Shown: positions 3,161 to 48,283 of the stretch, piece after piece
Numbering within the stretch: the stretch's first letter is position 1
Layout of the letters: each line of letters begins with the position of its first letter
Assembly: GCA_003151515.1 (NCBI GenBank)
Contig: PLXS01000001.1
Coordinates: 1 to 64,000, forward strand
Source: Opitutaceae bacterium
Lineage (GTDB): Bacteria; Verrucomicrobiota; Verrucomicrobiia; Opitutales; Opitutaceae
DNA: 64,000 bases
Reading direction: 5' to 3'
The notes under the pieces: generated by a model
Database searches by the model: none
What the model saw: only the letters and a program-made list of their open reading frames with translations
Told to the model about the DNA's origin: nothing
Made by a program: the position numbers and the translations under genes

Positions 3161-5728
<2,568 letters not shown>

Positions 5729-5838
5729 TCAGAACCCGCGAACACGCGAGGGTTTTTTTGGGGAAAATTAGGGCCTAAATGCCTCGGAAACAGCCCTTTT
5801 AGGGCCGCTCGGCCTCCCCCCGCTATCCCCCTGCCTGC

Positions 5839-6927
5839 CTAGGAGCCCGCCGCGGGCGGATTTTCGCCGTTGTAGACCATCGGAACCCGCACGAAAACGT
5901 CGACCGGCCTGCCGCCCTTCAGGGGCTGGGTGTACTGCCAGCGGGCCACGGCCGTGGCCGCCGCCCAGCCAAATTCGGGGCTCGAGGCCGACACGATCCG
6001 AGGGAGCTGGGCGTGTCCCGCATGGTCGATGATGAACTCGATGACGGCCTGGCACGGCTGCCTCGCCTTGCGGATCGAGTCGGGGACATCGGGCTCGGGC
6101 TGGAATCTACCCTGCAGCTTCTCATCCAAGGCATTGGAATCCAATACGATGGGGCAACGGTTCTTCTTGAGGGGACTGAGGAGGCGGTCGGCCGAGTCGT
6201 TCAGCGGGAAATCGGCGGCGTCCCGGTCAAACTCCTGCTCCTTGGAGAGGAGCGCCCAGCAGGGCGCCCCGCCCTTGGTCGCAGGCTCGAACCTCCACGA
6301 GGCGATCATCGCCTCGGCGGCGGCTGCGAACTCCGGATGCGAGGCGCCGGACACCTTCGTCACATGCGTCTTACCTCTTGGGTCGACCGCGAAGCTTACC
6401 TCGGCCTTGCCCGTCACCTTCGCTTTCAGCAGCTCGAGGGGATAGACCGGCGCACTCGTGAGGATCGGCTTGGGTGGGCTGTCATACTGGAACTCGGCGG
6501 GCAGCTTCTTCGACGCGGTGCCCGGAATGGTCCAGATGTCGACGCCGTGACCCGGGTGATAGGGCGTGCTGTTCAGCTGGAAGAGCATCGGCACACGCAT
6601 GTGCGTGTACACGGGATGCCCGTCCACCATGCCCGGCTTGAACTTCCACTTCAGGAGCGCCTCTACGGCGGGCGCCTCAAAGTCGGGATGCGAGGACTTG
6701 AGGACGGCGACCTTGGATACGCTGCCCTCCTTATCGACGATGAAATCGAGCAGAACTTCGCCCTTCTTGCCGTCGAGGCGAAGGGACCAGGGGTATTCGG
6801 GCGCCTGCTGGCTTATCGCCTTGGGCTGAGTGAATGCGGCTGGCGCGTCCGCCGCCGGAAGCGCGCCCCATGGCGCGAGGGCGGCCGCCAGGATGGCTGC
6901 AAGGCTCCTAAACGTCGGCGGCTTCAT
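5839..6927 (-). CDS. Secreted protein with three TonB C-terminal-like domains
   Basis: The start at 6927 is chosen because it gives a signal peptide (MKPPTFRSLAAILAAALAPW, cleavage near ADA); a start 66 bp upstream would add an Arg-rich stretch. The mature protein consists of three TonB_C-like units at roughly residues 40-120, 165-245 and 285-355. Each has the pattern of a beta hairpin with D..G.V..V, then S.(H/S)P(D/E)F..AA..A...W.(F/Y).P. Canonical TonB has one such domain after an N-terminal transmembrane anchor and a proline-rich linker; both are absent here. It is therefore probably a periplasmic or surface TonB_C-fold protein rather than an energy transducer. Function unknown. Confidence 0.7.
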   Translation of the reverse strand: MKPPTFRSLAAILAAALAPWGALPAADAPAAFTQPKAISQQAPEYPWSLRLDGKKGEVLLDFIVDKEGSVSKVAVLKSSHPDFEAPAVEALLKWKFKPGMVDGHPVYTHMRVPMLFQLNSTPYHPGHGVDIWTIPGTASKKLPAEFQYDSPPKPILTSAPVYPLELLKAKVTGKAEVSFAVDPRGKTHVTKVSGASHPEFAAAAEAMIASWRFEPATKGGAPCWALLSKEQEFDRDAADFPLNDSADRLLSPLKKNRCPIVLDSNALDEKLQGRFQPEPDVPDSIRKARQPCQAVIEFIIDHAGHAQLPRIVSASSPEFGWAAATAVARWQYTQPLKGGRPVDVFVRVPMVYNGENPPAAGS

Positions 6928-7808: not shown

Positions 7809-8280
7809 CTTAGCTTTGGGGCCTGGTCGTCGCTCCAAGTTCTTTGATCCCAAGGCGCGGGTAACGCCGCGCCCGATAGAAGTTTGGAGAGGAAAGTCCG
7901 GACACCGCAGGGCAGGATGCTGTCCGAGCCGAAAGGCAAGGGCAGGAGCCGCGGGTCAAGCCGCTGCTACGGAGAGTGTCACAGAAAACAAACCGCCCGG
8001 CGGCCCCCTCGGGGGCCGGCAGGCAAGGGTGAAAAGGTGGGGCAAGAGCCCACCGCGCCCGCCGCGAGGCGGGCGGCACGAAAAACCCCGTCCGGTGCAA
8101 GACAAAATAGGAGACTGGGCGGCCCGCCCGACAGTCTCGGGTATGTCGCATCCGTCCGAATCCGCCCGGTTCGCCGGACGGAGGTCGGACAGGCGCGCCC
8201 CGCAAGGGGGGCGAGAGAAATGACGGCCGAAGCCCCGCAAGGGGCGGAACAGAATCCGGCTTACCGGCCCCGAAGCTAAG
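7809..8280 (+). ncRNA. rnpB: RNase P RNA, class A
   Basis: This is the catalytic RNA that matures tRNA 5' ends. The ends are fixed by helix P1: 7809-7823 pair with 8266-8280, with a single G-U. Conserved blocks appear in order: GAGGAAAGTCCGGAC (from about 7891), ACAAACCGCC (from about 7987), AGGGTGAAAAGGTG, GTGCAAGACAAAATAGG (8096-8112) and AGAATCCGGCTTACCGG (8251-8267). At about 470 nt it is longer than the E. coli RNA (377 nt); the extra length is in GC-rich stems between 8115 and 8245. A short T-run (8284-8288) and then a 6-bp hairpin (8289-8303) follow. The order is wrong for a classical intrinsic terminator. Confidence 0.95.
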
Positions 8281-8372
8281 CAATTTTTCCCGTTCTTAAC
8301 GGGACAGAGAGACAATCGTCGGCTCCCGGCCGCAGCGTCGGCCAAGGCGACCGGCGGGTTGCCAACCCCAGC

Positions 8373-9944
8373 TTGAAAAACACCAGCATCATTCTTCTTG
8401 GGGCGGCGCTTTGCGCCGCCGCCGGGCCCGCGCTCCGAGCCGACGCGGGAGCGGGGCGCCACGTCGTCGTGATCGTCTTCGACGGCATGAGGCCCGACTT
8501 CATATCGGCCGACGCAACGCCCAACCTCTGGGGGCTCGCCTCCCGCGGCGTATTCTTCGCGCACCACCACGCGGTCTACCTGAGCTCGACGGAGGTAAAC
8601 GGCACGGCGATCGCAACCGGCGCGTACCCCGCGCGCAGCACGGTCGTCGCAAACTACGACTTCCGCCCCGCGATCGACCCCCAGAAGCCCGTCGGGATCG
8701 CGGTCCCCGCGGCGGTGCGCCGCGGCGACGAGGTGAGCGGCGGCCGCTACCTGGGCGCCCCGACCGTGGCCGAGGTCCTGCACTCGCACGGGCGGCGCAC
8801 CGTGGTCGCGGGCACGAAGCAGGTGGCGCTCCTGCACGACCGGGCGGAGCGGAAGCAATCCGCGGGCGTCTCGCCGGTCCTCTTCGAGGGCGCGTTCCTT
8901 CCGGCGTCGCTCGGCGACCCCGTGATCCGCGCCCTGGGGCAGTTTCCCCCGATCTCCGAGAGCCGGGACAAGATGAGCCGCGACGCCTGGACGACATCGG
9001 CCGTCATCGGGCCCCTGTGGAGTGACGGCGTGCCCGACTACACCCTGCTCTGGCTCGCGGAGCCGGACTTCTCGCAGCACGCGACGGGCCCCGGCTCGGC
9101 GCAGTCCCTCGTCGTGATCAGGAACAGCGACGCGCAGCTCGGCCGCGTCCTTGCCGACCTGGAACGGCGCGGCCTGGGCGGCAAGACCGACGTCTTCGTT
9201 GTCTCCGACCACGGAATCTCAACGATCGCGTGGAAGGTGGACGTCGCGGCAGAGCTTTCCGCGGCCGGCTTCAGGACGGGGAGGGCCGCCCTCGGCGGCC
9301 TGGGGCCCGGAGACGTGCTCGTCGTAAGCAACGGCGGCAGCTCGCTCCTGTACGTCGGCGGGCACGACCCGGACGTCTGCAGGCGCCTGGCCGCGTACCT
9401 GCAGGTCCAGCAGTGGGCCGGCGTCGTCCTATCGAGGCGTCCCCTCGAGGGGACATTCCCCCTTGGCGAGGCGCACATCGATTCGCCGGGCGCCCCGGAC
9501 CTGGTCGTCTCTCTCCACTGGACGGCCGGACGAAGCGCGACCGGCGCCCCGGGCCTGCAGACCTCCGACGCGGCCGCGGCCTCGAAGACGGTGGGCAACC
9601 ACGCGAGCCTGAGCCCATTCGACATGCACAACACGCTTGTGGCCGCGGGGCCGGACCTGCGGCGCGGCGTCGTCGACACGCTGCCCACGGGCAACGTGGA
9701 CGTCGCCCCGACCGTGCTCTGGATCCTGGGCTTCAAGCAGGACGCGGCGCGCATGGACGGGCGCGTCCTTGGCGAGGCCCTGGCGGCGGACGCGCAGCCG
9801 CTGAACGGCTACGAGATCCGCCGGCTGACTGCGTCGCGGGCGGCCGCCGGAGGGGTCTGGAGCCAGTACCTGCAGGTGAGCGAGGTGAACGGGGTGCGCT
9901 ACCTCGACGAGGGCAACGGCGCCTTCGAGGCGGGCTCCAGGTAG
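8373..9944 (+). CDS. Secreted alkaline-phosphatase-superfamily phosphodiesterase
   Basis: A 523-residue protein starting with TTG at 8373, which gives a clean signal peptide (cleavage near ALRADA). It belongs to the type I phosphodiesterase/nucleotide pyrophosphatase branch. The first metal aspartate is in VIVFDGMRPDF, the likely nucleophile Thr is in SSTEVNGT, metal ligands are in VVSDHGIS, and the C-terminal metal site is around SLSPFDMHNT to GNVDVAPTVL. It should hydrolyse phosphodiester or phosphate-ester bonds in the periplasm; the substrate cannot be read from sequence. It stands alone between rnpB and a GNAT gene. Confidence 0.85.
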   Translation: MKNTSIILLGAALCAAAGPALRADAGAGRHVVVIVFDGMRPDFISADATPNLWGLASRGVFFAHHHAVYLSSTEVNGTAIATGAYPARSTVVANYDFRPAIDPQKPVGIAVPAAVRRGDEVSGGRYLGAPTVAEVLHSHGRRTVVAGTKQVALLHDRAERKQSAGVSPVLFEGAFLPASLGDPVIRALGQFPPISESRDKMSRDAWTTSAVIGPLWSDGVPDYTLLWLAEPDFSQHATGPGSAQSLVVIRNSDAQLGRVLADLERRGLGGKTDVFVVSDHGISTIAWKVDVAAELSAAGFRTGRAALGGLGPGDVLVVSNGGSSLLYVGGHDPDVCRRLAAYLQVQQWAGVVLSRRPLEGTFPLGEAHIDSPGAPDLVVSLHWTAGRSATGAPGLQTSDAAAASKTVGNHASLSPFDMHNTLVAAGPDLRRGVVDTLPTGNVDVAPTVLWILGFKQDAARMDGRVLGEALAADAQPLNGYEIRRLTASRAAAGGVWSQYLQVSEVNGVRYLDEGNGAFEAGSR

Positions 9945-34875: not shown

Positions 34876-35751
34876 ATGCACACGCGCTCCATCGTCATCG
34901 CCGCCCTGGCGCTCGCCGTCCTTGCCGCCGGCCCCGGGTGCGGCGGCGACAACCCGGCGCTCACCGCCGAGGTTGACGACTCAAGCTACAGGCTGGGCCA
35001 GCAGCTCGAGCGCGAGGGAAGGTGGGACGAGGCGCTTGCCGCGTATCTGAGGGTGATCAGCCGCCGCGGCGACGCCGCGCCAGAGTCGAACCTCGACGCG
35101 GGCCTGATATGCCTCAACCACACGCAGAACCCGATATTCGCGATCTACCACTTCAGCAAGTACCTCGAGCTCGAGCCCAACTCCAAGAAGGCGGGGATGG
35201 TGCGCGGGATGATCGACTCGGCGAAGCGGGAGTTCGCCCGCACGCTTCCGGGCCAGCCCATGGAGAGCGTGACGGCGCACCTGGGCCTGGAGGACCAGGT
35301 CTCGCGCCTGCAGCGCGAGAACGACGAGCTGCGGGCGGAGAACGCGGCGCTTCGCGCCGGGGTCACGGTGCCGGTCACCCACTCAAGCACGATAACCCTC
35401 GGCGCGATCCCGAAGGAGGAGAGCGCGGCGGAGGCGCCCCAGGCGGCTCAGCCGCAGGACGCGTCCTCGGCGATATCGCTCGCGCCGGTCGCGCCGGGCG
35501 AGGGCGCGGCGGCCTCCGCGATCACGGACGCCCCGCAGGAGGAGCCTCCCTCGCAGCAGCCGGCGCCCAAGGCGGCTTCGCCCGCGGCTGGGCGCCACCA
35601 CACGGTCATGCGGGGCGACACCCTCTTCAGCCTGTCGCTCAGGTATTACGGGACGCGCTCCAAGTGGCGCGACATCTTCGCCGCCAACAGGGGCGTCCTC
35701 GCGAGCGAGAACTCGCCCCTGAAGATCGGCGTCGAGCTGAAGATCCCCTAG
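34876..35751 (+). CDS. LysM-domain lipoprotein with TPR and coiled coil
   Basis: A 291-residue protein. The signal peptide ends in AAGPGC, a lipobox-like site with Cys near residue 22. Residues about 33-110 are TPR-like (YRLGQQLEREGRWDEALAAY), about 130-155 a coiled coil (QVSRLQRENDELRAENAALR), about 160-235 an Ala/Pro linker, and the C-terminus (about 240-291) a LysM domain (HTVMRGDTLFSLSLRYYGTR). LysM binds peptidoglycan, so the protein probably anchors or scaffolds at the cell wall. Its stop codon shares CTAG with the stop of the convergent aminotransferase gene. Confidence 0.85.
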   Translation: MHTRSIVIAALALAVLAAGPGCGGDNPALTAEVDDSSYRLGQQLEREGRWDEALAAYLRVISRRGDAAPESNLDAGLICLNHTQNPIFAIYHFSKYLELEPNSKKAGMVRGMIDSAKREFARTLPGQPMESVTAHLGLEDQVSRLQRENDELRAENAALRAGVTVPVTHSSTITLGAIPKEESAAEAPQAAQPQDASSAISLAPVAPGEGAAASAITDAPQEEPPSQQPAPKAASPAAGRHHTVMRGDTLFSLSLRYYGTRSKWRDIFAANRGVLASENSPLKIGVELKIP

Positions 35752-37088
35752 ACCGAGGCGAGGGCCTCGTCGAGGACCGCGAGCAGGAAGTCCGCGTCGC
35801 TCGCCGAGAAGATCATCGGCGGCTTGATCCGCAGCGTGTTCCCCATGAACCCGCCCTTGCCGACCAGCAGTCCCATGTCCTTGCACGCCTCGAACACGGC
35901 CGCGCACTCCTCCTTGGCGGGCTCCTTGGTCCTGCGGTCCCTGACGAGCTCAACGCCCAGCATGAGCCCCAGGCCCCGGATGTCGCCGATCAGGCTGTGC
36001 TTGGCGGCCAGCCGCTCGAAGCCCGCCTTGAGGTAGTTGCCGACCCTTAGCGAGTTGGCCTGCAGGTGCTCCCGCTCGATCACCTCGAGGACTGCCCGGC
36101 CCTGGGCGCAGACGACCGGGTTTCCGCCGAAGGTGTTGAAGTGGATGCGCTGCGCGAGCGCCTGGGCAACCGTCGGCGTCGTCACCACCGCGGCCAGGGC
36201 GCAACCGTTTCCGATTCCCTTCGCCATCGTGACGATGTCGGGGATCACCCCCTGCGTCTCGAAGCCCCAGAAGTGGGTGCCCGTCCTGCCGAAGCCGGTC
36301 TGGACCTCGTCGGCGACGCAAAGGCCCCCGGCCGCGCGCACGTGGGCGTAGGCGTGCTTCAGGTAGCCGTCGGGGTACACGACCGTCCCTCCGACCCCCT
36401 GGATCGACTCGGCGATGAACCCGGCAATCTTCCCCGACGTTCCGAACTGCACGAGGTCCTTGACGTCGTCCGCGTACTTGCGGCCGGCCTCGGGGTCGTC
36501 CTTGCCGTGGGGGCCGCGGTACAAGTCGGGGAACAATGCGTGCTGGACTCCGAAGCTGTGCGGCACATTGAACTTCCAGGTCGAGTGCGACGTGAGGCCC
36601 ATCGTGGACTGGCTGCCCCCGTGATAGCCGTTTCTAAGGGCGATGAAATCGTAGCAGCCCGTGTACGCCCTGGCCATCAGCAGGGCGAGGTCGTTGGCCT
36701 CGGAGCCCGAGTTGACGAGGTAGACGACCCTGAGCTCCCCCGGCATGCGGTCCGCCAGCTCCTGCGCGTACAGGGCGATGTTGGGGTTGAGGTAGATGGT
36801 AGTCGTGTGCTGGAGCGTCTCGTTCTGCAGGTTCGCCGCGGCGACGACATGGGGGTGGCAGTGCCCGCAGCTGACGGTGACAATCCCACCGATGGCGTCT
36901 AGGTAGCGCCTGCCCTTCTCGTCAAAGAGCCACTGCGCCTTGCCCTCGACGATCATCAGCGGCTTCTTGTAGTAGTGGAAGATCGCCGGGTTGAGGTACT
37001 TCTTGCGAAGCGAGAGGACCTCCTCGGCCGAGGGCCCGCGGTAGGGCTTCGGCAGGTGGGTGGACGGCGGCAGGGGGATGTTTTTCAT
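35748..37088 (-). CDS. Class III PLP aminotransferase (AGXT2 / beta-alanine:pyruvate type)
   Basis: A 446-residue fold-type I, class III omega-aminotransferase. It shows VNSGSEANDLAL (phosphate-binding), GYHGGSQSTMGLT, ADEVQTGFGRTG (PLP-ring aspartate) and the Schiff-base lysine in TMAKGIGNG (about residue 290). The sequence style is that of AGXT2 and plant PYD4, which transaminate beta-alanine and beta-aminoisobutyrate with pyruvate or glyoxylate. With dihydropyrimidinase and PreA genes in the same region, the natural role is the transamination step of reductive pyrimidine breakdown. It starts 3 bp after the NCS1 permease stop. Confidence 0.88.
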   Translation of the reverse strand: MKNIPLPPSTHLPKPYRGPSAEEVLSLRKKYLNPAIFHYYKKPLMIVEGKAQWLFDEKGRRYLDAIGGIVTVSCGHCHPHVVAAANLQNETLQHTTTIYLNPNIALYAQELADRMPGELRVVYLVNSGSEANDLALLMARAYTGCYDFIALRNGYHGGSQSTMGLTSHSTWKFNVPHSFGVQHALFPDLYRGPHGKDDPEAGRKYADDVKDLVQFGTSGKIAGFIAESIQGVGGTVVYPDGYLKHAYAHVRAAGGLCVADEVQTGFGRTGTHFWGFETQGVIPDIVTMAKGIGNGCALAAVVTTPTVAQALAQRIHFNTFGGNPVVCAQGRAVLEVIEREHLQANSLRVGNYLKAGFERLAAKHSLIGDIRGLGLMLGVELVRDRRTKEPAKEECAAVFEACKDMGLLVGKGGFMGNTLRIKPPMIFSASDADFLLAVLDEALASV

Positions 37089-37091
37089 GGG

Positions 37092-38540
37092 CTAGGTCTT
37101 GGGAGCCAGTTTGCGCAGAATCAGGTACACGACAAACGCTATCGCAAAGCCCGAGAACCACGCGTAGCTGTACACGCCCAGCAGGAGGGGCGGGACACGC
37201 CCGGCCGCGAGCCACTTCGACTGCACGAGGAACCCCGGCAGGCTGGGGAGGACGGCGAGGACGAAGGCCAGGATGGCCACGAGGCTCCAGCCGCCCGTGT
37301 AGCGGTAGCGCCCGTTCGGGTCGTAGAGGGCGGGGACGTCGAGCTTGGTCCCGTGGACGACGAAGTAGTCGGCAATCATGATGCCGCCCACGGGCCCTAG
37401 CAGCGCGCTGTAGCCCACGAGCCACGAGAAGATGTAGCCCGTCGGGTCGGCCACGAGCTTCCAGGGCATCATGACGATCCCGATCAGCCCGGTGATGAGT
37501 CCCCCGGTGCGGAACGAGATCCTGCGGGGAGCGAGGTGGGAGAAGTCGTTCGCCGGGGAGACCACGTTCGCCGCGATGTTCGTCGCCAGGGTCGCGATGC
37601 AGAGGGCCACCATCGACAGGATGAGGACGGCCGGGCTCTTGAAGCGCACGAGCACCTCCAGGGGATCCCAGATGGTCTCTCCGAAGATGACCGAGGTGGC
37701 GGAGGTCACCGCGACGCCTATGAACGAGTAGAAAGCCATCGCCAGAGGAAGGCCCAGGGCCTGGCCCACGATCTGGTCGCGCTGGGAGGCTGCGTACCTC
37801 GAGAAGTCGGGTATGTTCAGGGAGAGCGTCGCCCAGAACCCGATCATCCCCGTGAGCCCCGGCACGAAGAAGGCCCAGAACTCTCCGGCCCTGGGCTGGC
37901 CCGGGTCGAAGGCCGAGGGGCGCGCGAGCATCGGCCCGAACCCTCCCGCGCTCCTGTAGGCCCACGCGAGCAGGAGGACGCCCAGGATGATCAGGAGGGG
38001 GGCCTTGATGCTCAGCAGCACCCTGATCGAGTCTATCCCCTTGTAGACGACCCACATGTTTATGGCCCAGAAGGCCATGAAGCAGGCGAACTGCAAGGGG
38101 GTTATCCCCAGGAAGTTGTGCGCGACGCCCTCTGCGAGCGACGGCCACAGGACGTCCGCAATCTTGTGGATCGCCTCGCCGCCGATCCAAGCCTGGATCC
38201 CGAACCAGCCGCAGGCGACCAGGGCGCGCATGAGCGCGGGAATGTTCGCGCCCACCGTCCCGAAGGACGCCCGGCAGAACACGGGGAAGGGTATCCCGTA
38301 GCGCGTGCCGGCGTGCGCGTTGAGCAATATCGGCACGAGCACGATCGAGTTCCCGAGGAATATCGTGAGGATCGCCTCCCACCAGTTCATGCCCCCCCCG
38401 ACCAGCGACGAGGCGAGCATGTAGGTCGGGACGCACGCCGCCATGGAGACCCACAGGGCCGCATAGCTTGCCACGCGCCAGTTGCGCCGCGCCTTCGGAA
38501 CCGGGAGCAGGTCGGGGTTCTCGAGCGGTCCCTGGGTCAT
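37092..38540 (-). CDS. NCS1-family nucleobase/hydantoin/allantoin permease
   Basis: A 482-residue membrane protein with about 12 helices of the LeuT fold. Family marks are NWWEAILTIFLGNSIVLVPI (helix 1-2), GIPFPVFCRASFG, ACGWFGIQAWIGG, and SLNIPDFSRYA at the helix 5-6 region, followed by PANDFSHLAP. The start at 38540 is chosen because it lies 1 bp past the preceding stop and gives the usual short N-terminus. In this context uracil, thymine or the dihydro forms are the likely substrates. It is co-transcribed with the aminotransferase gene. Confidence 0.9.
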   Translation of the reverse strand: MTQGPLENPDLLPVPKARRNWRVASYAALWVSMAACVPTYMLASSLVGGGMNWWEAILTIFLGNSIVLVPILLNAHAGTRYGIPFPVFCRASFGTVGANIPALMRALVACGWFGIQAWIGGEAIHKIADVLWPSLAEGVAHNFLGITPLQFACFMAFWAINMWVVYKGIDSIRVLLSIKAPLLIILGVLLLAWAYRSAGGFGPMLARPSAFDPGQPRAGEFWAFFVPGLTGMIGFWATLSLNIPDFSRYAASQRDQIVGQALGLPLAMAFYSFIGVAVTSATSVIFGETIWDPLEVLVRFKSPAVLILSMVALCIATLATNIAANVVSPANDFSHLAPRRISFRTGGLITGLIGIVMMPWKLVADPTGYIFSWLVGYSALLGPVGGIMIADYFVVHGTKLDVPALYDPNGRYRYTGGWSLVAILAFVLAVLPSLPGFLVQSKWLAAGRVPPLLLGVYSYAWFSGFAIAFVVYLILRKLAPKT

Positions 38541-38541
38541 G

Positions 38542-39501
38542 TCACGAGGATCCGATGAGCATCCCTGCCGCGAACACCAGCAGCCCCCCAACGATGACCT
38601 GGAAGGCCGCCGAGAGGAAGCGCGTGTCCATGTAGTGGTGCCTTATCCAGGAGATGATCACGAGCTCCACGAGGACGACCGCGACCGCGATGGTGAAGGC
38701 GATGTGGAAGTCGCCGACGATGAACGGAAGCGTGTGGCCGAGGCCTCCCAGGGCCGTCATCAGGCCGCAGACGGCGCCTCGGATTAGCGGGTGGCCGCGC
38801 CCGCTCAGGGCGCCGTCGTCGGAGAGGGCCTCGGCGAAGCCCATGCTGATCCCGGCGCCCACCGACGAGGCGAGGCCCACGAGGAGGGCGTCGCGGCTGC
38901 TGTGCGTCGCGAACGCTGCGGCGAAGAGCGGCGCCAGCGTGGACACCGAGCCGTCCATGAGGCCCGCGAGGCCGGGCTGGACCACCTGCAGCACGAACAT
39001 GCGCTGCTGGCTGCGGTCCTCCTCGGCGCGCGCGCCGCTCGCGACCTGCTCGGACTCGAGCCTGTTGGCGACCGCGGAGTGCTCGATCTCGGCGTGGGCC
39101 AGGTCGCCCAGGAGCCGGCGGGTCTCGGCGTCGGCCGTTCGCGCGGCCGCGGCCTCGTAGAACGTCCTCGACTCGAGTTCCATGACGCCGATCTGGCGGC
39201 GGGCCTGGGCGACCGAGAGGGCCTTCATGAGCCACACCGGCTTCCTGCGTATGAAGCCCGTGACGTCGGAGCGCTGGATCAGCGGGATGTGCTCGCCAAA
39301 GCGCGCCCGGAACCGGTCGATGAGCCTCTGGCGGTGCTCGGACTCCTCGCGCTCCATCTTGAGGATCGCCTGCGCGCTCGCGGGGAAGTCGACCTTGAAC
39401 CGCTCGGCGAGGTCGGCGTAGATCCGCGCATCCTCCTCCTCGAGGGCGATCGCCAGGGCGAGTATCTCTTTCTCGGTGAGGTCTGAGAAGGGCTTGGCCA
39501 T
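38542..39501 (-). CDS. Membrane-bound ferritin (MbfA-like: rubrerythrin plus VIT1/CCC1)
   Basis: A 319-residue protein. The N-terminal ferritin-like diiron domain (about 1-150) has ligand candidates in [30 protein letters not shown] and LAHAEIEHS. The C-terminal half (about 165-319) is a five-helix VIT1/CCC1 transporter domain with [15 protein letters not shown] and [20 protein letters not shown]. This is the MbfA architecture, an iron or manganese exporter protecting against peroxide stress in alpha-proteobacteria. It is first in a run with the permease and aminotransferase genes, although it has no obvious link to pyrimidine breakdown. Confidence 0.88.
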
Positions 39502-42383: not shown

Positions 42384-43769
42384 CTAGCCGGCCCGGCTCG
42401 GCGCGCGCTTCAGGAAACGGCCCCTGGCCGGGTCCCCGACGAACGCCCCGTCGCGCACGGCGACCTGGCCCCGGACGGTGACGGCGCTCGGGCGCCCCTC
42501 GATCTTCCAGCCCTCGAACGCGCTGTAGTCGAGGTTCATGTGCTGCGTGGCTTGGGAGATCACGCCGCGGTAGCCCGGGTCGTAGACGACTAGGTCGGCG
42601 TCGGCCCCCGGCTGGATCGAGCCCTTGCGCGGGAACAGGTCGAACGTCTTCGCGACCTGGGTGCTCGCGGCGTTCACGAGCGTGTGCAGGTCGATCCTGC
42701 CGGCCTTCACGCCGCGCGTGTACAGGAGGTTGATGCGCTCCTCGAGCGACGGGATACCGTTCGGGATCTTCGTGAAGTCGGCGCGACCCATATCCTTCTG
42801 GCCCTTGAAGTCGAACGGCGCGTGGTCCGTCGCTACGGTCTGGATGAGGCCGTCGCGGATCCCGTTCCAGAGGTGCTCCTGGTTCGACGCGTCCCGCAGC
42901 GGCGGGGACATCACATACTTCGCGCCCTCGAATCCGGGCAGCTCGGCCCATGTCTTGTCGAGGACGAGGTACTGGATCAGGGTCTCGATGCCGACGCGAA
43001 CGCCCCTGCGCCGGGCGGCCAGCGCCTCGTCAAGCGCGCGCTTGCAGCTCAGGTGCACGATGTAGGTGTGGGCTCCCGTGAGCTCCGCGAAGGTCATCAG
43101 GTGATGGACGCCCTCCGCCTCGACCGCGGGCGGCCTGCTCTCATGGTGCTGTCCGGGGTCCGTCTTGCCGGCCGCAAGGAGGCGCCTCTGCAGCTCGTAG
43201 ACCAGGGTCTCATTCTCGCAGTGGGCCGTGACGACGACGCCCAGCTCCCGGGCGAGGCCCAGGATGCCGAAGAGCTCGGTGTCATCGACCCCGAAGGCTC
43301 CCTTGTAGGCCAGGAACACCTTGAACGAGCTTATCCCCCGGCTGACGATCTCGCGCAGCTGCGACTGGGTCTTGGCGTCGAACTTGGCCGCCCCCATGTG
43401 GAACGTGAAGTCGCACGCCGAGCGGCCCTGCGCCTGGGCCATCCAGTGCTCGAAGCCGCCGAGCGCGTCCTCGTTTTTCGCCGGGCAGCACATCTCGATC
43501 AGGGTCGTCGTGCCGCCGACCAGGGCCGCCTTGCTCGCCGTGTCGTAGGTGTCCTTGGCGAACGTCCCCATGAACGGGAGCGTGATGTGGACGTGCGGAT
43601 CGATGAACCCCGGGAAGACGTACTTGCCGGTGGCGTCGATTACCTGGGCGCCCGCTGGGGCCTCGAGCCCCGCGCCGATTCGCGTGACGGTCTCCCCCTC
43701 GCAGTAGATGTCGGCCCGCGATCTCGAGTCGGCCGTGATGATTTCCCCGTTCCTTATGAGCAGTGGCAT
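42384..43769 (-). CDS. hydA: Dihydropyrimidinase
   Basis: A 461-residue cyclic amidohydrolase that opens the ring of dihydrouracil/dihydrothymine. The metal centre is visible: FIDPHVHI (residues about 57-63), the carboxylated lysine in SSFKVFLAYKG (about 150), TAHCEN (about 183), IVHLSC (about 240) and ATDHAPF (about 315). NAASTQVAKTF is the standard post-active-site block. Hydantoinases share the fold; the surrounding preA, beta-ureidopropionase and aminotransferase genes favour dihydropyrimidinase. It starts 7 bp after the mmsA stop. Confidence 0.93.
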   Translation of the reverse strand: MPLLIRNGEIITADSRSRADIYCEGETVTRIGAGLEAPAGAQVIDATGKYVFPGFIDPHVHITLPFMGTFAKDTYDTASKAALVGGTTTLIEMCCPAKNEDALGGFEHWMAQAQGRSACDFTFHMGAAKFDAKTQSQLREIVSRGISSFKVFLAYKGAFGVDDTELFGILGLARELGVVVTAHCENETLVYELQRRLLAAGKTDPGQHHESRPPAVEAEGVHHLMTFAELTGAHTYIVHLSCKRALDEALAARRRGVRVGIETLIQYLVLDKTWAELPGFEGAKYVMSPPLRDASNQEHLWNGIRDGLIQTVATDHAPFDFKGQKDMGRADFTKIPNGIPSLEERINLLYTRGVKAGRIDLHTLVNAASTQVAKTFDLFPRKGSIQPGADADLVVYDPGYRGVISQATQHMNLDYSAFEGWKIEGRPSAVTVRGQVAVRDGAFVGDPARGRFLKRAPSRAG

Positions 43770-43776
43770 GGTAGAT

Positions 43777-45273
43777 TCATTTCTTCCAGACGTCGTCGAC
43801 CGTGCCGCCGAACCATCGCGTGGTGACGACCTTCTGCTGGGTGTAGAACTGCACGGCCTCGCGCCCCTGGATGTGCAGGTCGCCGTAGAAGGAGGCGTCC
43901 CATCCCGTGAACGGGAACATGGCCATCGTGGCGGGCACGCCCACGTTGATCCCGACCATGCCGGCCTTCACCCGGTGCTTGAACTCGCGCGCGGCGGGGC
44001 CCGAGGAGGTGAAGATGGAGGCTCCGTTTCCGTAGGACGAGCGGTTGGCGGCGTCGATGGCCTGGTCCAGGTCGTCCATCCGCATGACATTGAGCACCGG
44101 GCCGAAGACCTCCTCGCGCGCGATATTCATGCTCTCGCGCACGCCGTCGACGATGGTCGCCCCGAGATAGAAGCCGTTGGGGGCGTCGGGCACCGATACG
44201 CCGCGTCCGTCGCACGCGACCGTGGCGCCTTCCTTCTCACCGCTCGCCACGAGGCCCGCGACGCGGTCGCGGTGGGCGCCCGTTATGAGCGGGCCCATGT
44301 CCGGCTGCGACATCGGGGTGTCCGTCCGGCCGACCTTGATCGACCGGGCGGCGTCCACGAGCTGCGGGAGGATCCTCTCGGCGGCGCTGCCCACCGCGAT
44401 CGCGGTCGAGCCCGCCATGCAGCGCTCGCCCGCGCAGCCGAAGGCCGCCGTCGCGAGGGCCTCGACCGAGCGCGCCGGATCGGCGTCCGGCATGACGACC
44501 ACGTAGTTCTTCGCGCCGCCGTTCGCCTGCACCCGCTTGCCGTTCCGAGTCGCCGTGTCGTAGATGTGCTTCGCCACGGGTGAGGAGCCCACGAACGAGA
44601 CGGCCCTCACCTTGGGGTGGGCGAGGAGGGCGTCGACGCACTCGCGCCCGCCGTGGACGACGTTTAGCACGCCCTTCGGCAGGCCCGCCTTCTCGAGGAG
44701 CTCGACCAGGATGAGCGACGTGAGGGGCACCTTCTCGCTGGGCTTCAGGACGAAGGTGTTCCCGCAGGCTATGGCCAGCGGGTACATCCAGAGCGGCACC
44801 ATCGCGGGGAAGTTGAAGGGGGTTATCCCGACGCAGACCCCGAGCGGCTGCAGGACGGACTCGCAGTCGACGTTGCGGGCGATGTTCTCCAGGGTGTCGC
44901 CGAAAAGGTGCGACGGGGTGCCGCAGGCGTACTCGATGTTCTCTATCCCCCGGTAGATGCTCCCGCGCGACTCGACGAGCGTCTTGCCGTGCTCGCGCGA
45001 TACGCTCGCGCAGAGCCTGTCGAAATCCTCCTCCACCAGGTGGCGGTAGCGGAAGAGCAGGCGCGCGCGCTCCACGACGGGAGTGTCCCTCCACGCGGGG
45101 AAGGCCGCCGCGGCGGCCTCGACGGCGGCGTCGACCTCCGCGGCGCCGCCCACCGGGCATTCTGCGATCACGTCGCCCGTCGACGGGTTGTAGACCGGCG
45201 ACCCGTAGCCCGACGGGCGAATCCATTCGCCGCCGATGAAAAGCGGGCAGGGGGTTAGGTTTGCCGATTTCAT
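43777..45273 (-). CDS. mmsA: Methylmalonate-semialdehyde dehydrogenase (CoA-acylating)
   Basis: A 498-residue aldehyde dehydrogenase. Family features are ITPFNFPAMVPLWMYPLAIA, LKPSEKVPLTS, FVGSSPVAKHIY and the catalytic cysteine in AGERCMAGSTAI (about residue 288). The MmsA type converts methylmalonate semialdehyde (from thymine or valine) to propionyl-CoA, and malonate semialdehyde (from uracil or beta-alanine) to acetyl-CoA. That is the final step after the aminotransferase. The start overlaps the preceding GNAT gene's stop (TTATGA), which indicates coupling. Confidence 0.93.
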   Translation of the reverse strand: MKSANLTPCPLFIGGEWIRPSGYGSPVYNPSTGDVIAECPVGGAAEVDAAVEAAAAAFPAWRDTPVVERARLLFRYRHLVEEDFDRLCASVSREHGKTLVESRGSIYRGIENIEYACGTPSHLFGDTLENIARNVDCESVLQPLGVCVGITPFNFPAMVPLWMYPLAIACGNTFVLKPSEKVPLTSLILVELLEKAGLPKGVLNVVHGGRECVDALLAHPKVRAVSFVGSSPVAKHIYDTATRNGKRVQANGGAKNYVVVMPDADPARSVEALATAAFGCAGERCMAGSTAIAVGSAAERILPQLVDAARSIKVGRTDTPMSQPDMGPLITGAHRDRVAGLVASGEKEGATVACDGRGVSVPDAPNGFYLGATIVDGVRESMNIAREEVFGPVLNVMRMDDLDQAIDAANRSSYGNGASIFTSSGPAAREFKHRVKAGMVGINVGVPATMAMFPFTGWDASFYGDLHIQGREAVQFYTQQKVVTTRWFGGTVDDVWKK

Positions 45274-45815
45274 AAGCTCATTTGCGCCAGGTGGGCGGGA
45301 GGCCCCGGCTCCAGGGGGGCGCCGTCCTCGGGCCGGAGAGCAAGCTGCCACCATCCGACGTCCCGCCACGCCCCGAGCTTGTACCCAATCTTCTTGTAGA
45401 TGCCGACGAGGGTGAAGCCCATCGACTCGTGGAAGGCCTGGCTCGCCGGGTTGGGCACCAGGATCCCCGCGTTGGCCCTGTAGAGCCCCTGCTCGCGCAG
45501 CCTGCCGAACAGGTCGGCGTAGAGCGCGCGGCCGACGCCCTCCCCGCGGTGGCTCTCGTGCACGTAGACGGTCACCTCGACGGCCCACCGGTACGCGGCC
45601 CGCTCGCGGTGCGGCGACGCGTAGGCGTAGCCCCTGATGATCCCGCCCGCGTCGTCCACGAGCCAGGCGTACCTGCGGTTGATCCTGCCGACTCTCGCCG
45701 CCATCTCCGCGGCGTCCGGGGCCCCGGTCTCGAACGAGACGCAGTTGTCCAGGCAGAAGGGACGGTAGATGGCCGCAATCTGCGGGGCGTCGTCGGCGTT
45801 GGCCAGGCGTATCAT
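45270..45815 (-). CDS. GNAT N-acetyltransferase, phosphinothricin-acetyltransferase-like
   Basis: A 181-residue protein beginning MIRLANADDAPQIAAIYRPF. The acetyl-CoA loop is HRGEGVGRALYADL (about residues 92-105), and the family's C-terminal NPASQAFHESMGFTLVGIYK and YKLGAWRDVGWWQL are present. PAT-like enzymes acetylate small amines such as methionine sulfone and phosphinothricin. Here it lies between preA and mmsA, overlapping the latter by 4 bp, so it is probably co-expressed with pyrimidine degradation. An amine intermediate such as beta-alanine is a possible substrate, by inference only. Confidence 0.85.
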   Translation of the reverse strand: MIRLANADDAPQIAAIYRPFCLDNCVSFETGAPDAAEMAARVGRINRRYAWLVDDAGGIIRGYAYASPHRERAAYRWAVEVTVYVHESHRGEGVGRALYADLFGRLREQGLYRANAGILVPNPASQAFHESMGFTLVGIYKKIGYKLGAWRDVGWWQLALRPEDGAPLEPGPPAHLAQMSL

Positions 45816-45828
45816 TCGCGCGCAGCGC

Positions 45829-46950
45829 CTACTGCTTCGAGAGCGCGTCGGACTGTTTTACGAATTCGTCGCCACTCCATTCGCCGTCGGACTTCACGAC
45901 CTTGCTGGCCGCCTTCTGCGCGGCCTTCCTGTCCGCCTGGCGCCGGACGAGGTCCGCGTGCGTGGTGAAGTACTCCAGGCTCTTGCCCTTGAAGTCGGAG
46001 AGCGTCTCGAATTTGTGCTTCTCCATGAAGGCGAGGAGCTCGTCGCACATGGGTTTCACGCACTCGTACCCGAACTTCATGACACCCGTGCAGACCTGCA
46101 CGGTGTCGGCTCCCAGAAGGATGAACTGCGCCGCGTCACCCCCGGTCTCGATGCCCCCGAGGCCCGAGAGCGTGCGCCCCGGGAACTCCTTGCGGATCAT
46201 CGTGGCGATTTCCATCACCATGCGCAGGGCTATCGGCTTCACCGCCTTGGACGAGTACCCTCCCGGTGTCGTCCATCCCTCGACGGTGGGCTCCGGGCGT
46301 AGCGTGTCCAGGTTAACACCCATGACGCTGCGGATCGTGTTTATCGCGCTCAGTCCGTTGCATCCGGCGCGCAGCGCGGCCCGGCTCGGGTCCTCGATGT
46401 GCGTCACGTTCGGGGTCATCTTGGCCCAGACGGGGAGCTTCGCGGCGCCCATCACCCATCCGCATACCTCGCCGAGGATCTCGGGGTCCTGGCCCATCGC
46501 CGCACCCATCTTGCGCTCGGGCAGCCCGTGCGGGCACGAGAAGTTGAGCTCAAAGGCGTCGACGCCGACGCCCTGGCAGCGCTCGATGATCTCGACCCAC
46601 GCGTCCTTGCGGTACTCCTCCATGACGGACGCGATCAGGACGCCGTTCGGGTTCGTGTCCTTGCACCTCTTGAACTCGTCGAGCCAGATGTTGAAGGGCC
46701 TGTCGCTGATCAGCTCGATATTCTCCCAGCCGAGGACCTCGCTCCCGTCGCGGGAGTGCAGCTTGGCATAGCGCGGCGTGACATTAACGACCTTGGAGGA
46801 GTCCAGGCTTATCGTCTTGGCAATGACGGCGCCCCAGCCCTCGCGGAACGCCCTGTTTATGACGCTCAGATTCGTTCCGGGCGGCCCTGATCCTATGATG
46901 AACGGATTCGGAAGCCTCAGGCCATCGACGATGGTTGCGAGTGTCGGCAT
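45829..46950 (-). CDS. preA: Dihydropyrimidine dehydrogenase catalytic subunit, short PreA
   Basis: A 373-residue FMN TIM-barrel of the class 1B dihydroorotate/dihydropyrimidine dehydrogenase type, starting MPTLATIVDGLRLPNPF. Diagnostic blocks are GSGPPGTN, NFSCPHGLPERKMGAAMGQD (about residues 147-166), WAKMTPNVTHIEDP, and GLGGIETGGDAAQF near the FMN phosphate site. E. coli PreA is longer and ends in a two-[4Fe-4S] ferredoxin domain; here the protein ends without any CxxC motif. The residue aligned with the catalytic Cys of mammalian enzyme (ACGQDPE) is Met. It reduces uracil/thymine in principle, but its electron partner is not evident and no preT is in the window. It heads the preA-GNAT-mmsA-hydA operon. 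Confidence 0.88.
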   Translation of the reverse strand: MPTLATIVDGLRLPNPFIIGSGPPGTNLSVINRAFREGWGAVIAKTISLDSSKVVNVTPRYAKLHSRDGSEVLGWENIELISDRPFNIWLDEFKRCKDTNPNGVLIASVMEEYRKDAWVEIIERCQGVGVDAFELNFSCPHGLPERKMGAAMGQDPEILGEVCGWVMGAAKLPVWAKMTPNVTHIEDPSRAALRAGCNGLSAINTIRSVMGVNLDTLRPEPTVEGWTTPGGYSSKAVKPIALRMVMEIATMIRKEFPGRTLSGLGGIETGGDAAQFILLGADTVQVCTGVMKFGYECVKPMCDELLAFMEKHKFETLSDFKGKSLEYFTTHADLVRRQADRKAAQKAASKVVKSDGEWSGDEFVKQSDALSKQ

Positions 46951-47038
46951 AGGCGTTTCGGGGCTGCGCGGATAGTCGTCCAGAATTCGCTCGTTTCCAA
47001 GCAGGAATTGAACCATGGTGCCGGCTTGCGGTAGCCCA
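46951..47038. promoter_or_regulatory. Divergent promoter region, preA and amidohydrolase
   Basis: Only about 88 bp separate the divergent starts of preA (46950) and the N-carbamoyl amidohydrolase gene (47039, or 47015 if the upstream ATG is used). Both transcripts of the pathway must start here. I see no confident -35/-10 pair or palindrome. Confidence 0.4.
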
Positions 47039-48283
47039 ATGAACGCAAGCGTCGACCCGAAGCGAACGATCGCAGAATTGAAGGATCTGCGCCAGCTGAC
47101 TGCGGATGACAACGGGGCCCAGCGGGTCGCCTTCACGCCCATGTGGCTCGCGACGCGGGCGTGGCTGCGAAAGAAGCTCGAGGCGCTCCCGGTGGAGGTC
47201 CACGCCGACGAGGCCGGCAACCTCTGGTCGACCCTCGCCGGCCAAGGCGAGCGGGCGCTGCTCATCGGCGGGCACATGGACTCCGTTCCCAACGGCGGAT
47301 GGCTTGACGGGTGCCTAAACGTGCTCGCCGGGCTGGAGGTCCTGCGCCGCATAAGCGCGCAGCACGGCGGCCGGCCGCCGGTGACCGTGCGCCTTGTCGA
47401 CTGGGCGGACGAGGAGGGGGCGCGCTTCGGCAAGAGCCTCTTCGGCTCCTCGGCGTGCGCCGGCACGCTCGACATGGCGGAGGCGCGCGGGCTCAGGGAC
47501 CGTGAGGGGGTCTCGCTCCCCGACGCGCTCGCAAAGGTCGGCATCGACTTCGAGAGGGTAAAGGAGAGCGGCCGCGAGCTCGCCAAGGCGGCCGCGTACC
47601 TCGAACTGCACATCGAGCAGGGGCCCGTGCTGCTCGACTTGGGCCTACCGCTGGGCGCCGTCCTGGGCACCTTCGGCGTCGAGAGGCACGCGATCACGTT
47701 CCGGGGCCAGGCGGCGCATTCGGGAAGCACGCCCATGAACCGGCGCAGGGACGCATTTCTCGCGGCGGGCCGGATGGCCTCGGAGATCTACGGGATCGCC
47801 GCGCGAAACGGGGGCGTCTGCACGATCGGCTCCTGCACGACCAAGCCCGGGATCGTAACGAGCGTCGTCGAGGAGTGCCGGATCACCCTCGACCAGCGCC
47901 ACCTCGACCCGGCCGCGCTTGCCAGGATGCTCGAGGAGGCGAGAGGCGCCGCGGAGCGCTTCGCCGCCGAGGGCGGTGTGGGCGTTTCCTGGGAGCGCCT
48001 GTGGAGGATCGAGCCCATCGCTTTCAACGCCGACCTGATCGGCATGTGCAACGAGGCGATACGGGAGACGTGCGGCAGGTCGCACCGGCTGCCGTCAGGG
48101 CCGCTTCACGACGCGGCCGAGGTCTCAAGGTCGGGCGTTCCCACCGTGATGATGTTCGTCCAGAGCCTTCGGGGCATAAGCCACAACAAGATCGAGGACA
48201 CGCTCGAGGAGCACCTCGAACTCTGCGTCAGGGCGTTCGACCGCCTCGCCGACAAGGCGATGGCGTGGGTGGGCTCCCGGTGA
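47039..48283 (+). CDS. N-carbamoyl-beta-alanine amidohydrolase (M20 Zn-hydrolase)
   Basis: A 414-residue M20-family dinuclear metal hydrolase of the beta-ureidopropionase/allantoate amidohydrolase/N-carbamoyl-L-amino acid hydrolase group. Metal and catalytic motifs are GGHMDSVPNGGWLDG (about residue 75), DEEGARFGKSLFGS (about 120), ELHIEQGP (about 185), and the lid-domain GQAAHSGSTPMNRRRDA (about 225). ISHNKIEDT lies near the end. It removes the carbamoyl group to give beta-alanine or beta-aminoisobutyrate. An ATG at 47015 would add eight residues. It is divergently transcribed from preA, completing the pathway. Confidence 0.85.
   Translation: MNASVDPKRTIAELKDLRQLTADDNGAQRVAFTPMWLATRAWLRKKLEALPVEVHADEAGNLWSTLAGQGERALLIGGHMDSVPNGGWLDGCLNVLAGLEVLRRISAQHGGRPPVTVRLVDWADEEGARFGKSLFGSSACAGTLDMAEARGLRDREGVSLPDALAKVGIDFERVKESGRELAKAAAYLELHIEQGPVLLDLGLPLGAVLGTFGVERHAITFRGQAAHSGSTPMNRRRDAFLAAGRMASEIYGIAARNGGVCTIGSCTTKPGIVTSVVEECRITLDQRHLDPAALARMLEEARGAAERFAAEGGVGVSWERLWRIEPIAFNADLIGMCNEAIRETCGRSHRLPSGPLHDAAEVSRSGVPTVMMFVQSLRGISHNKIEDTLEEHLELCVRAFDRLADKAMAWVGSR

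Follow-up and report, generated by a model that had tools for sequence, protein, structure and literature searches.

A short dihydropyrimidine dehydrogenase of the plant PYD1 type, lacking an iron–sulfur domain, in a uracil-degradation operon of Verrucomicrobiota

The window analyzed here, a 64,000-nucleotide stretch of an Opitutaceae bacterium genome, encodes on its minus strand a short dihydropyrimidine dehydrogenase (DPD) of the plant PYD1 type, recognized from its open reading frame and from family models. The 373-codon frame occupies all of 45829–46950, reading from 46950 to 45829, and its 373-aa product consists of an FMN/uracil barrel (about residues 4–320) followed by a conserved C-terminal tail (about residues 321–373) with no Fe–S domain. 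By the coordinates, a gap of 13 bases separates it from a GNAT acetyltransferase gene resembling ArsN1b (45270..45815, minus strand; 204.7 bits against a cut-off of 210), 11 bases separate that gene from a (methyl)malonate-semialdehyde dehydrogenase (43777..45258, minus; TIGR01722, 641 bits, cut-off 448.5) and 7 bases lie before a dihydropyrimidinase (42384..43769, minus; TIGR02033, 531 bits, cut-off 393). Divergently oriented at 47015..48283 on the plus strand is a hydantoinase/carbamoylase-family amidase (TIGR01879, 282 bits, cut-off 204), which from its context is probably beta-ureidopropionase. Two further minus-strand genes complete the neighborhood: an NCS1 nucleobase:cation symporter (37092..38591; TIGR00800, 382 bits, cut-off 353; start codon uncertain, scanned from 38537) that probably serves uracil uptake, and a class III aminotransferase (35748..37088; none of the listed models passes its cut-off) that by context is probably a beta-alanine aminotransferase. 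The gene set around the short enzyme is the reductive uracil pathway, and the short gene heads the operon.

The same company recurs elsewhere. Across 88 short-form loci, some of which are two records of one organism and many of which end early, homologues with at least 80% coverage were found for the semialdehyde dehydrogenase at 64, the dihydropyrimidinase at 64, the amidase at 55, the aminotransferase at 48 and the permease at 42. The ArsN1-like GNAT gene between the short gene and the semialdehyde dehydrogenase is also present in 7 of 80 related loci, all titled Opitutaceae. At 8 of the 81 loci (for example, L057:14140-14580) the operon has a gene close by that we read as cytosine-deaminase-like, which is consistent with cytosine being fed into uracil breakdown.

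The NCBIfam PreA model NF006183 matches the 373-aa protein above its cut-off (381.1 bits, cut-off 335), and the match spans model positions 4–332 of 422, leaving the C-terminal 2×[4Fe–4S] part (333–422) unmatched. Pfam reports DHO_dh alone on this protein and no Fer4 domain. The extent of the NF006183 match and the Pfam result thus bear out the original prediction that the protein ends after the FMN barrel and lacks the two [4Fe–4S] clusters; judged by its sequence, the short enzyme is the FMN/uracil barrel of DPD without the [4Fe–4S] domain. Truncation or an assembly error can be ruled out because the length is typical of the family (368–384 aa among 28 short forms including the window protein) and the start is conserved among all 28; they also share the tail, in which D355, W358, F363, V364, Q366, S367 and L370 are invariant after a variable linker. 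In one assembly the short gene is broken by two TAG stops (L062/L100, G011:C168), possibly through sequence errors or decay. The nearest solved relatives by sequence are pig DPD structures (residues 537–853, E = 2.5e-66), and pig DPD also ranks first in a fold search with a structure model of moderate quality (mean pLDDT 74, the tail being poor with block means of 57 or less from residue 331).

Nine FMN- and uracil-contacting residues of pig DPD, whose roles apart from that of C671 we take from the pig structures, were mapped onto the short enzyme: K574, N609, E611, N668, S670, C671, K709, N736 and T737 correspond to K45, N77, E79, N136, S138, C139, K177, N204 and T205. Counted along the alignment, 9 of 9 are identical, and all nine are invariant in the 28 short forms. 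The original prediction had aligned a methionine with the mammalian catalytic cysteine and suggested that the active-site acid may differ. This alignment was mistaken: pig Cys671 (in NLSCPHG) lies opposite Cys139 (in NFSCPHG), which is kept and invariant, and the methionine, Met152, lies opposite pig residue 684, where E. coli PreA has a valine (lined up by eye). Met152 is itself invariant in the 28 short forms. Three pig sequences in the alignment differ at the Cys of NLSCPHG; the PDB titles name 1h7x as C671A and 7m31 as C671S. The calculated codon positions, all on the minus strand, are 46816..46818 for Lys45, 46534..46536 for Cys139 and 46495..46497 for Met152.

The short forms make up a clade of their own. 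Named genomes yielded 251 related loci, of which we kept the 80 best; these are 75–89% identical, and all but two have titles naming Verrucomicrobiota groups, the exceptions being one Magnetospirillum and one PVC group bacterium. The short genes of the records titled Magnetospirillum sp. (L030) and Akkermansia muciniphila (L039) nest among other Verrucomicrobiota, and L030 also carries an Opitutae-type operon, suggesting a mislabeled or mixed bin. Among 288 genomes sampled from the window's phylum, the short form occurs in 10 (661–857 bits) and the long, Fe–S-bearing form in 21 (193–282 bits), with no scores between the two ranges. In a phylogenetic tree the 28 short forms make up one group (support 95/92) apart from 25 long forms, with a long-branch warning at a neighboring branch. 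Cultivated members include Haloferula, Luteolibacter and Roseibacillus strains. A plasmid search for the short enzyme returned 171 records, every one below 60% identity.

A barrel-only architecture is already known from plants, and what is new here is the bacterial member; no bacterial form without the Fe–S domain is described in the literature searched, which comprised titles and the beginnings of abstracts, with most subscription journals lying outside the search. OsDHPD of rice (414 aa) and AtDHPD/PYD1 of Arabidopsis (AT3G17810, 426 aa) are barrel-only according to the sequence comparison in PMC9930899, in which OsDHPD lacks Fe/S, FAD and NADPH sites. We follow that comparison for the plant architecture rather than PMC9585004, which contrarily groups plant PYD1 with the FAD- and Fe–S-bearing DPYD. 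From the residues after N256/T257 of PYD1 (position from PMC2713857) to the C-terminus there are 169 residues, compared with 168 in the window protein and 209 in E. coli PreA. An approximate Arabidopsis PYD1 sequence, matching the published length and five of seven published residue positions (the other two are off by one), is 61% identical to the window protein over 374 residues including the tail and 42% identical to E. coli PreA over 325, and it provisionally groups with the short clade (100/99). The plant enzyme differs by an added plastid transit peptide, whereas the window gene shares its operon with the other pathway genes. The original prediction would have lost its point if the short form were standard among characterized enzymes. 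This holds in part: the plant form has the same architecture, but the recombinant plant enzymes described in PMC9930899 and PMC2713857 were inactive.

Other known systems differ more. E. coli PreA shares the barrel and the active-site Cys (38% identity over query residues 4–336) but has a C-terminal 2×[4Fe–4S] domain and an adjacent PreT, and the short enzyme has neither. Pig DPD (1gte, 1h7w) is the best sequence and structural match and keeps the catalytic Cys and the uracil-binding residues, but it is a multi-domain protein (1,025 aa) that also carries NADPH, FAD and four clusters. PydAc of Clostridium chromiireducens also lacks the FAD/NADPH module and reduces uracil without PreT, taking its electrons from reduced ferredoxin; unlike the short enzyme, it has two ferredoxin domains of its own, the clusters of which are required (PMC7332683). 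The survey by the PydAc authors required a ferredoxin domain and would therefore miss the short form. Class 1B dihydroorotate dehydrogenase (DHODH) differs in that all DHODH models stay under their cut-offs on the short enzyme (the best, for PyrD, at 168.8 against 270 bits) and in its PyrK partner, the marker of which (PF10418) was not found in the window's genome.

The original prediction had also noted the absence of PreT, and this stands at every scale that we searched. Neither the 64-kb window nor any of the 80 related loci contains an open reading frame of at least 80 aa that matches a PreT profile; counted within 10 kb on each side, these loci extend over 15.5 kb on average and 3.8 kb at the least. 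At genome level, we ran the PreT profile on 22 short-form genomes, all of the window's phylum, and on 17 of the 26 known long-form genomes. All 17 long-form genomes gave scores of 563–737 bits and no short-form genome exceeded 363 bits, so that none of the 22 reached a PreT-level score; the predicted use of a different electron donor is supported by this gap. In 10 of the 22 there is no PreT/GltD-family match at E ≤ 1e-20, and seven of these ten genomes (G052, G154, G241, G251, G283, G313 and G316) are at least 97% complete. Judged by locus, long forms have PreT adjacent or fused in 24 of 26 cases (in G039 the PreT end lies at the contig edge). In G208 and G237, an Fe–S-bearing PreA (L200:8914-10185 and L201:9160-10461, respectively) has no PreT within about 9 kb; these two PreA homologues are possibly ferredoxin-dependent like PydAc, and their closest neighbor in the tree is the short clade, a placement that is weak and involves long branches (91/78).

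The window's own genome (G000, 92% complete) encodes three PreT-family proteins. The first is a GltD (TIGR01317, 778 bits), whose neighbor we read as GltB; the second is GltD-like (TIGR01318, 518 bits); and the third, encoded beside carbamate kinase and YgeY, is an 828-aa fusion that has FMN and Fe–S domains of its own. The fusion (G000:C26:53077-55563; L109:3078-5564, minus strand) joins a PreT-like half, a DHODH-like barrel and a C-terminal Fe–S motif in a DPD-like layout. It resembles YgfK/UacX of reductive uric-acid degradation, although its YgfK-model score of 145 is far below the cut-off of 835. The gene neighborhood, with carbamate kinase and YgeY, is similar to that of the reductive uric-acid clusters presented in PMC12507026, and the fusion is possibly a distinct reductase of a cluster of this type. 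As a general donor for the short enzyme it was rejected: a PreT-like and a DHODH-like match share one frame in only 3 of the 22 short-form genomes (G000, G002 and G005).

In four genomes (G033, G060, G054 and G230) the operon order is the same, with PreT+PreA filling the slot of the short gene. Within a single genus, G201 carries the short form and G230 the long one, and the two have their flanks in common out to SufS-SufU, as in the window. A dihydropyrimidinase tree, made by a quick method from the loci in which the gene is at least 80% covered (64 of the 88 short-form and 7 of the 10 long-form loci, some being two records of one organism), shows at least four changes of type, three of them forced by starred branches, and gives no direction of change. 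The long-type dihydropyrimidinase of G230 (L169) is 94% identical to a short-type one from another record (L046). We read this swap as natural complementation, in which the short enzyme by itself fulfills the role of PreT+PreA. Because the same operon slot holds PreT+PreA in relatives, the substrate of the short enzyme is very probably uracil, its direction very probably unchanged, and its electron donor, on these comparative grounds, must differ from PreT. A changed direction or substrate, as originally proposed, finds no support: the uracil and FMN residues are kept, the operon is an ordinary reductive uracil operon, and the two enzyme types interchange.

Several candidate donors were searched for. 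PyrK was rejected: of the 22 short-form genomes, a single one has a PF10418 match above the cut-off, and this match lies in a 177-aa frame. Flavodoxin does not qualify as a universal donor either, with matches at E ≤ 0.001 in only 9 of 22 genomes (8 over the cut-off), nor does a stand-alone [2Fe–2S] ferredoxin: PF00111 is present in 22 of 22, but in five genomes (G052, G283, G288, G313 and G316) the only two matches each lie in large open frames of at least 261 codons. A small Fer4_13 ferredoxin was found in 9 of 10 and 12 of 12, that is, 21 of 22 short-form genomes; the sole exception, G283, has flavodoxin-sized frames of 147 and 155 codons. The window genome's copy has 79 aa and a net charge of −11 (G000:C13, around 8206–8373). 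This ferredoxin is just as frequent elsewhere, occurring in 16 of 17 long-form and 20 of 21 neither-form genomes (36 of 38 together), so its co-occurrence with the short form is unspecific: it is available, not linked to the short form, and the co-occurrence is permissive evidence only. Among the matches listed, those to PF12838 and PF00037 lie mostly in larger frames.

At the loci themselves, no ferredoxin gene sits conservedly with the short form. A rescan of 81 loci down to 40 codons for the Fe–S domain as a separate small frame gave 19 motif matches, mostly in random-looking frames; the plausible ones (L044, L045 and L084) are 3.7–9.3 kb away and not common to the loci. Nor is a conserved unlabeled neighbor a candidate, given that every family of open reading frames (at least 80 aa, within 9 kb) is confined to 10 or fewer of the 81 loci; as we read them, the larger families include four-helix proteins, the cytosine-deaminase-like proteins (8 loci) and xanthine-dehydrogenase-like proteins (5 loci). 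Elsewhere in the window's genome (G000:C40), a DHODH-like protein (NF005741, 415 bits) directly follows an open reading frame that we read as pyruvate:ferredoxin oxidoreductase-like (L112:2530-3543 and 3540-5999, minus strand).

The best explanation, and one to which we give somewhat better than even chances, is a short PYD1-type DPD whose FMN takes electrons directly from a small acidic ferredoxin; activity, direction and above all donor are here what we infer from the genomes. The enzyme would reduce uracil, and probably also thymine, to the dihydro form at the FMN in its DHODH-like barrel, with Cys139 as the putative general acid, and this would be the first reaction of the reductive pyrimidine pathway whose genes lie beside it. 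Electrons would not come from PreT through iron–sulfur clusters of the enzyme's own, unlike in E. coli PreA. Instead a diffusible low-potential carrier, most likely a small acidic [4Fe–4S] ferredoxin, would dock on the barrel, perhaps, as a speculation, at the conserved tail, and reduce the FMN directly. We prefer direct reduction by ferredoxin because PydAc of Clostridium gives a precedent. Against it stand the equal frequency of the ferredoxin in long-form and neither-form genomes, its absence from G283 and the lack of a conserved ferredoxin gene at the locus; moreover, PydAc has Fe–S domains of its own and loses activity when these are not reconstituted (PMC7332683), and the recombinant rice enzyme was inactive, though the paper does not mention ferredoxin (PMC9930899). 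Docking at the tail is countered by the net charge of the tail helix, which varies from 0 to +4 in 25 of 28 rows (in the other 3 the script chose the wrong stretch), and by the poor structure model there. A fuller version, with the soluble ferredoxin docking on the barrel without any Fe–S relay, the tail replacing the ferredoxin domain, the mechanism common to plastid PYD1 and its verrucomicrobial relatives and the module exchanged in situ for PreT+PreA, is plausible, and we rate it slightly below an even chance.

Some readings dispense with ferredoxin altogether. A reductase dedicated to the short enzyme that belongs to neither the PreT/GltD nor the PyrK family and escaped recognition, for example a directly acting TrxR-like flavoprotein, encoded elsewhere, would fit the lack of a conserved donor gene at the locus, and the plant work postulates a chloroplast partner (PMC9930899, PMC2713857); repeated in-situ swaps without a partner gene better suit a carrier present in every host, and we regard such a reductase as unlikely. 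Class 1A DHODHs are lone FMN barrels that use a small-molecule co-substrate in ping-pong chemistry. By this parallel, and with no partner gene found, the FMN could be reduced directly, without any protein partner, by NAD(P)H, by reduced flavin or by a bound organic reductant. The rice enzyme was unreactive with NADH, NADPH and in a dihydroorotate/fumarate/DCIP assay, a single negative from a preparation that was possibly inactive according to the authors (PMC9930899), and we consider a small-molecule reductant rather less likely still.

The remaining readings leave the donor as PreT or alter the reaction. An enzyme that runs the other way, oxidizing dihydrouracil, or that acts as a DHODH would account for the missing donor and recall fungal members of the wider family that oxidize dihydrouracil (PMC9585004). 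With the DHODH models under their cut-offs, the uracil-site residues invariant and the short gene both sitting in and swapping into a uracil-degrading operon, we find this very improbable. An ordinary PreA served by a PreT elsewhere in the genome might be suspected from the three PreT-family proteins in a genome assembly only 92% complete. These three are the GltD, the GltD-like protein and the 828-aa fusion, 10 of 22 short-form genomes have no family member at E ≤ 1e-20, and the short enzyme has no Fe–S relay; none of the 22 genomes gives a PreT-level score, so a PreT encoded at a distance fails to account for the short form. This largely refutes the reading, and we accord it almost no probability.

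The direct-ferredoxin reading bears on plants as well. In 2009, and again in 2023, no electron donor of plant PYD1 had been identified (PMC2713857, PMC9930899): its compulsory partner is reported as unidentified in PMC2713857, the plant databases yielded no PreT-like partner and a truncated rice DHPD was soluble yet inactive with NAD(P)H (both in PMC9930899). Uracil catabolism falls by only 40% in pyd1 mutants of Arabidopsis, which counts against the direct-ferredoxin reading; the authors suspect another activity (PMC2713857), and plants may therefore have a second route. The short bacterial enzyme, built like plant PYD1, gives a simple setting, in bacteria, in which to look for the plant donor. 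With a pathway operon, cultivated members, genomes without any PreT/GltD match and natural swaps at hand, the donor question should hence be answerable by ordinary bacterial genetics and biochemistry.
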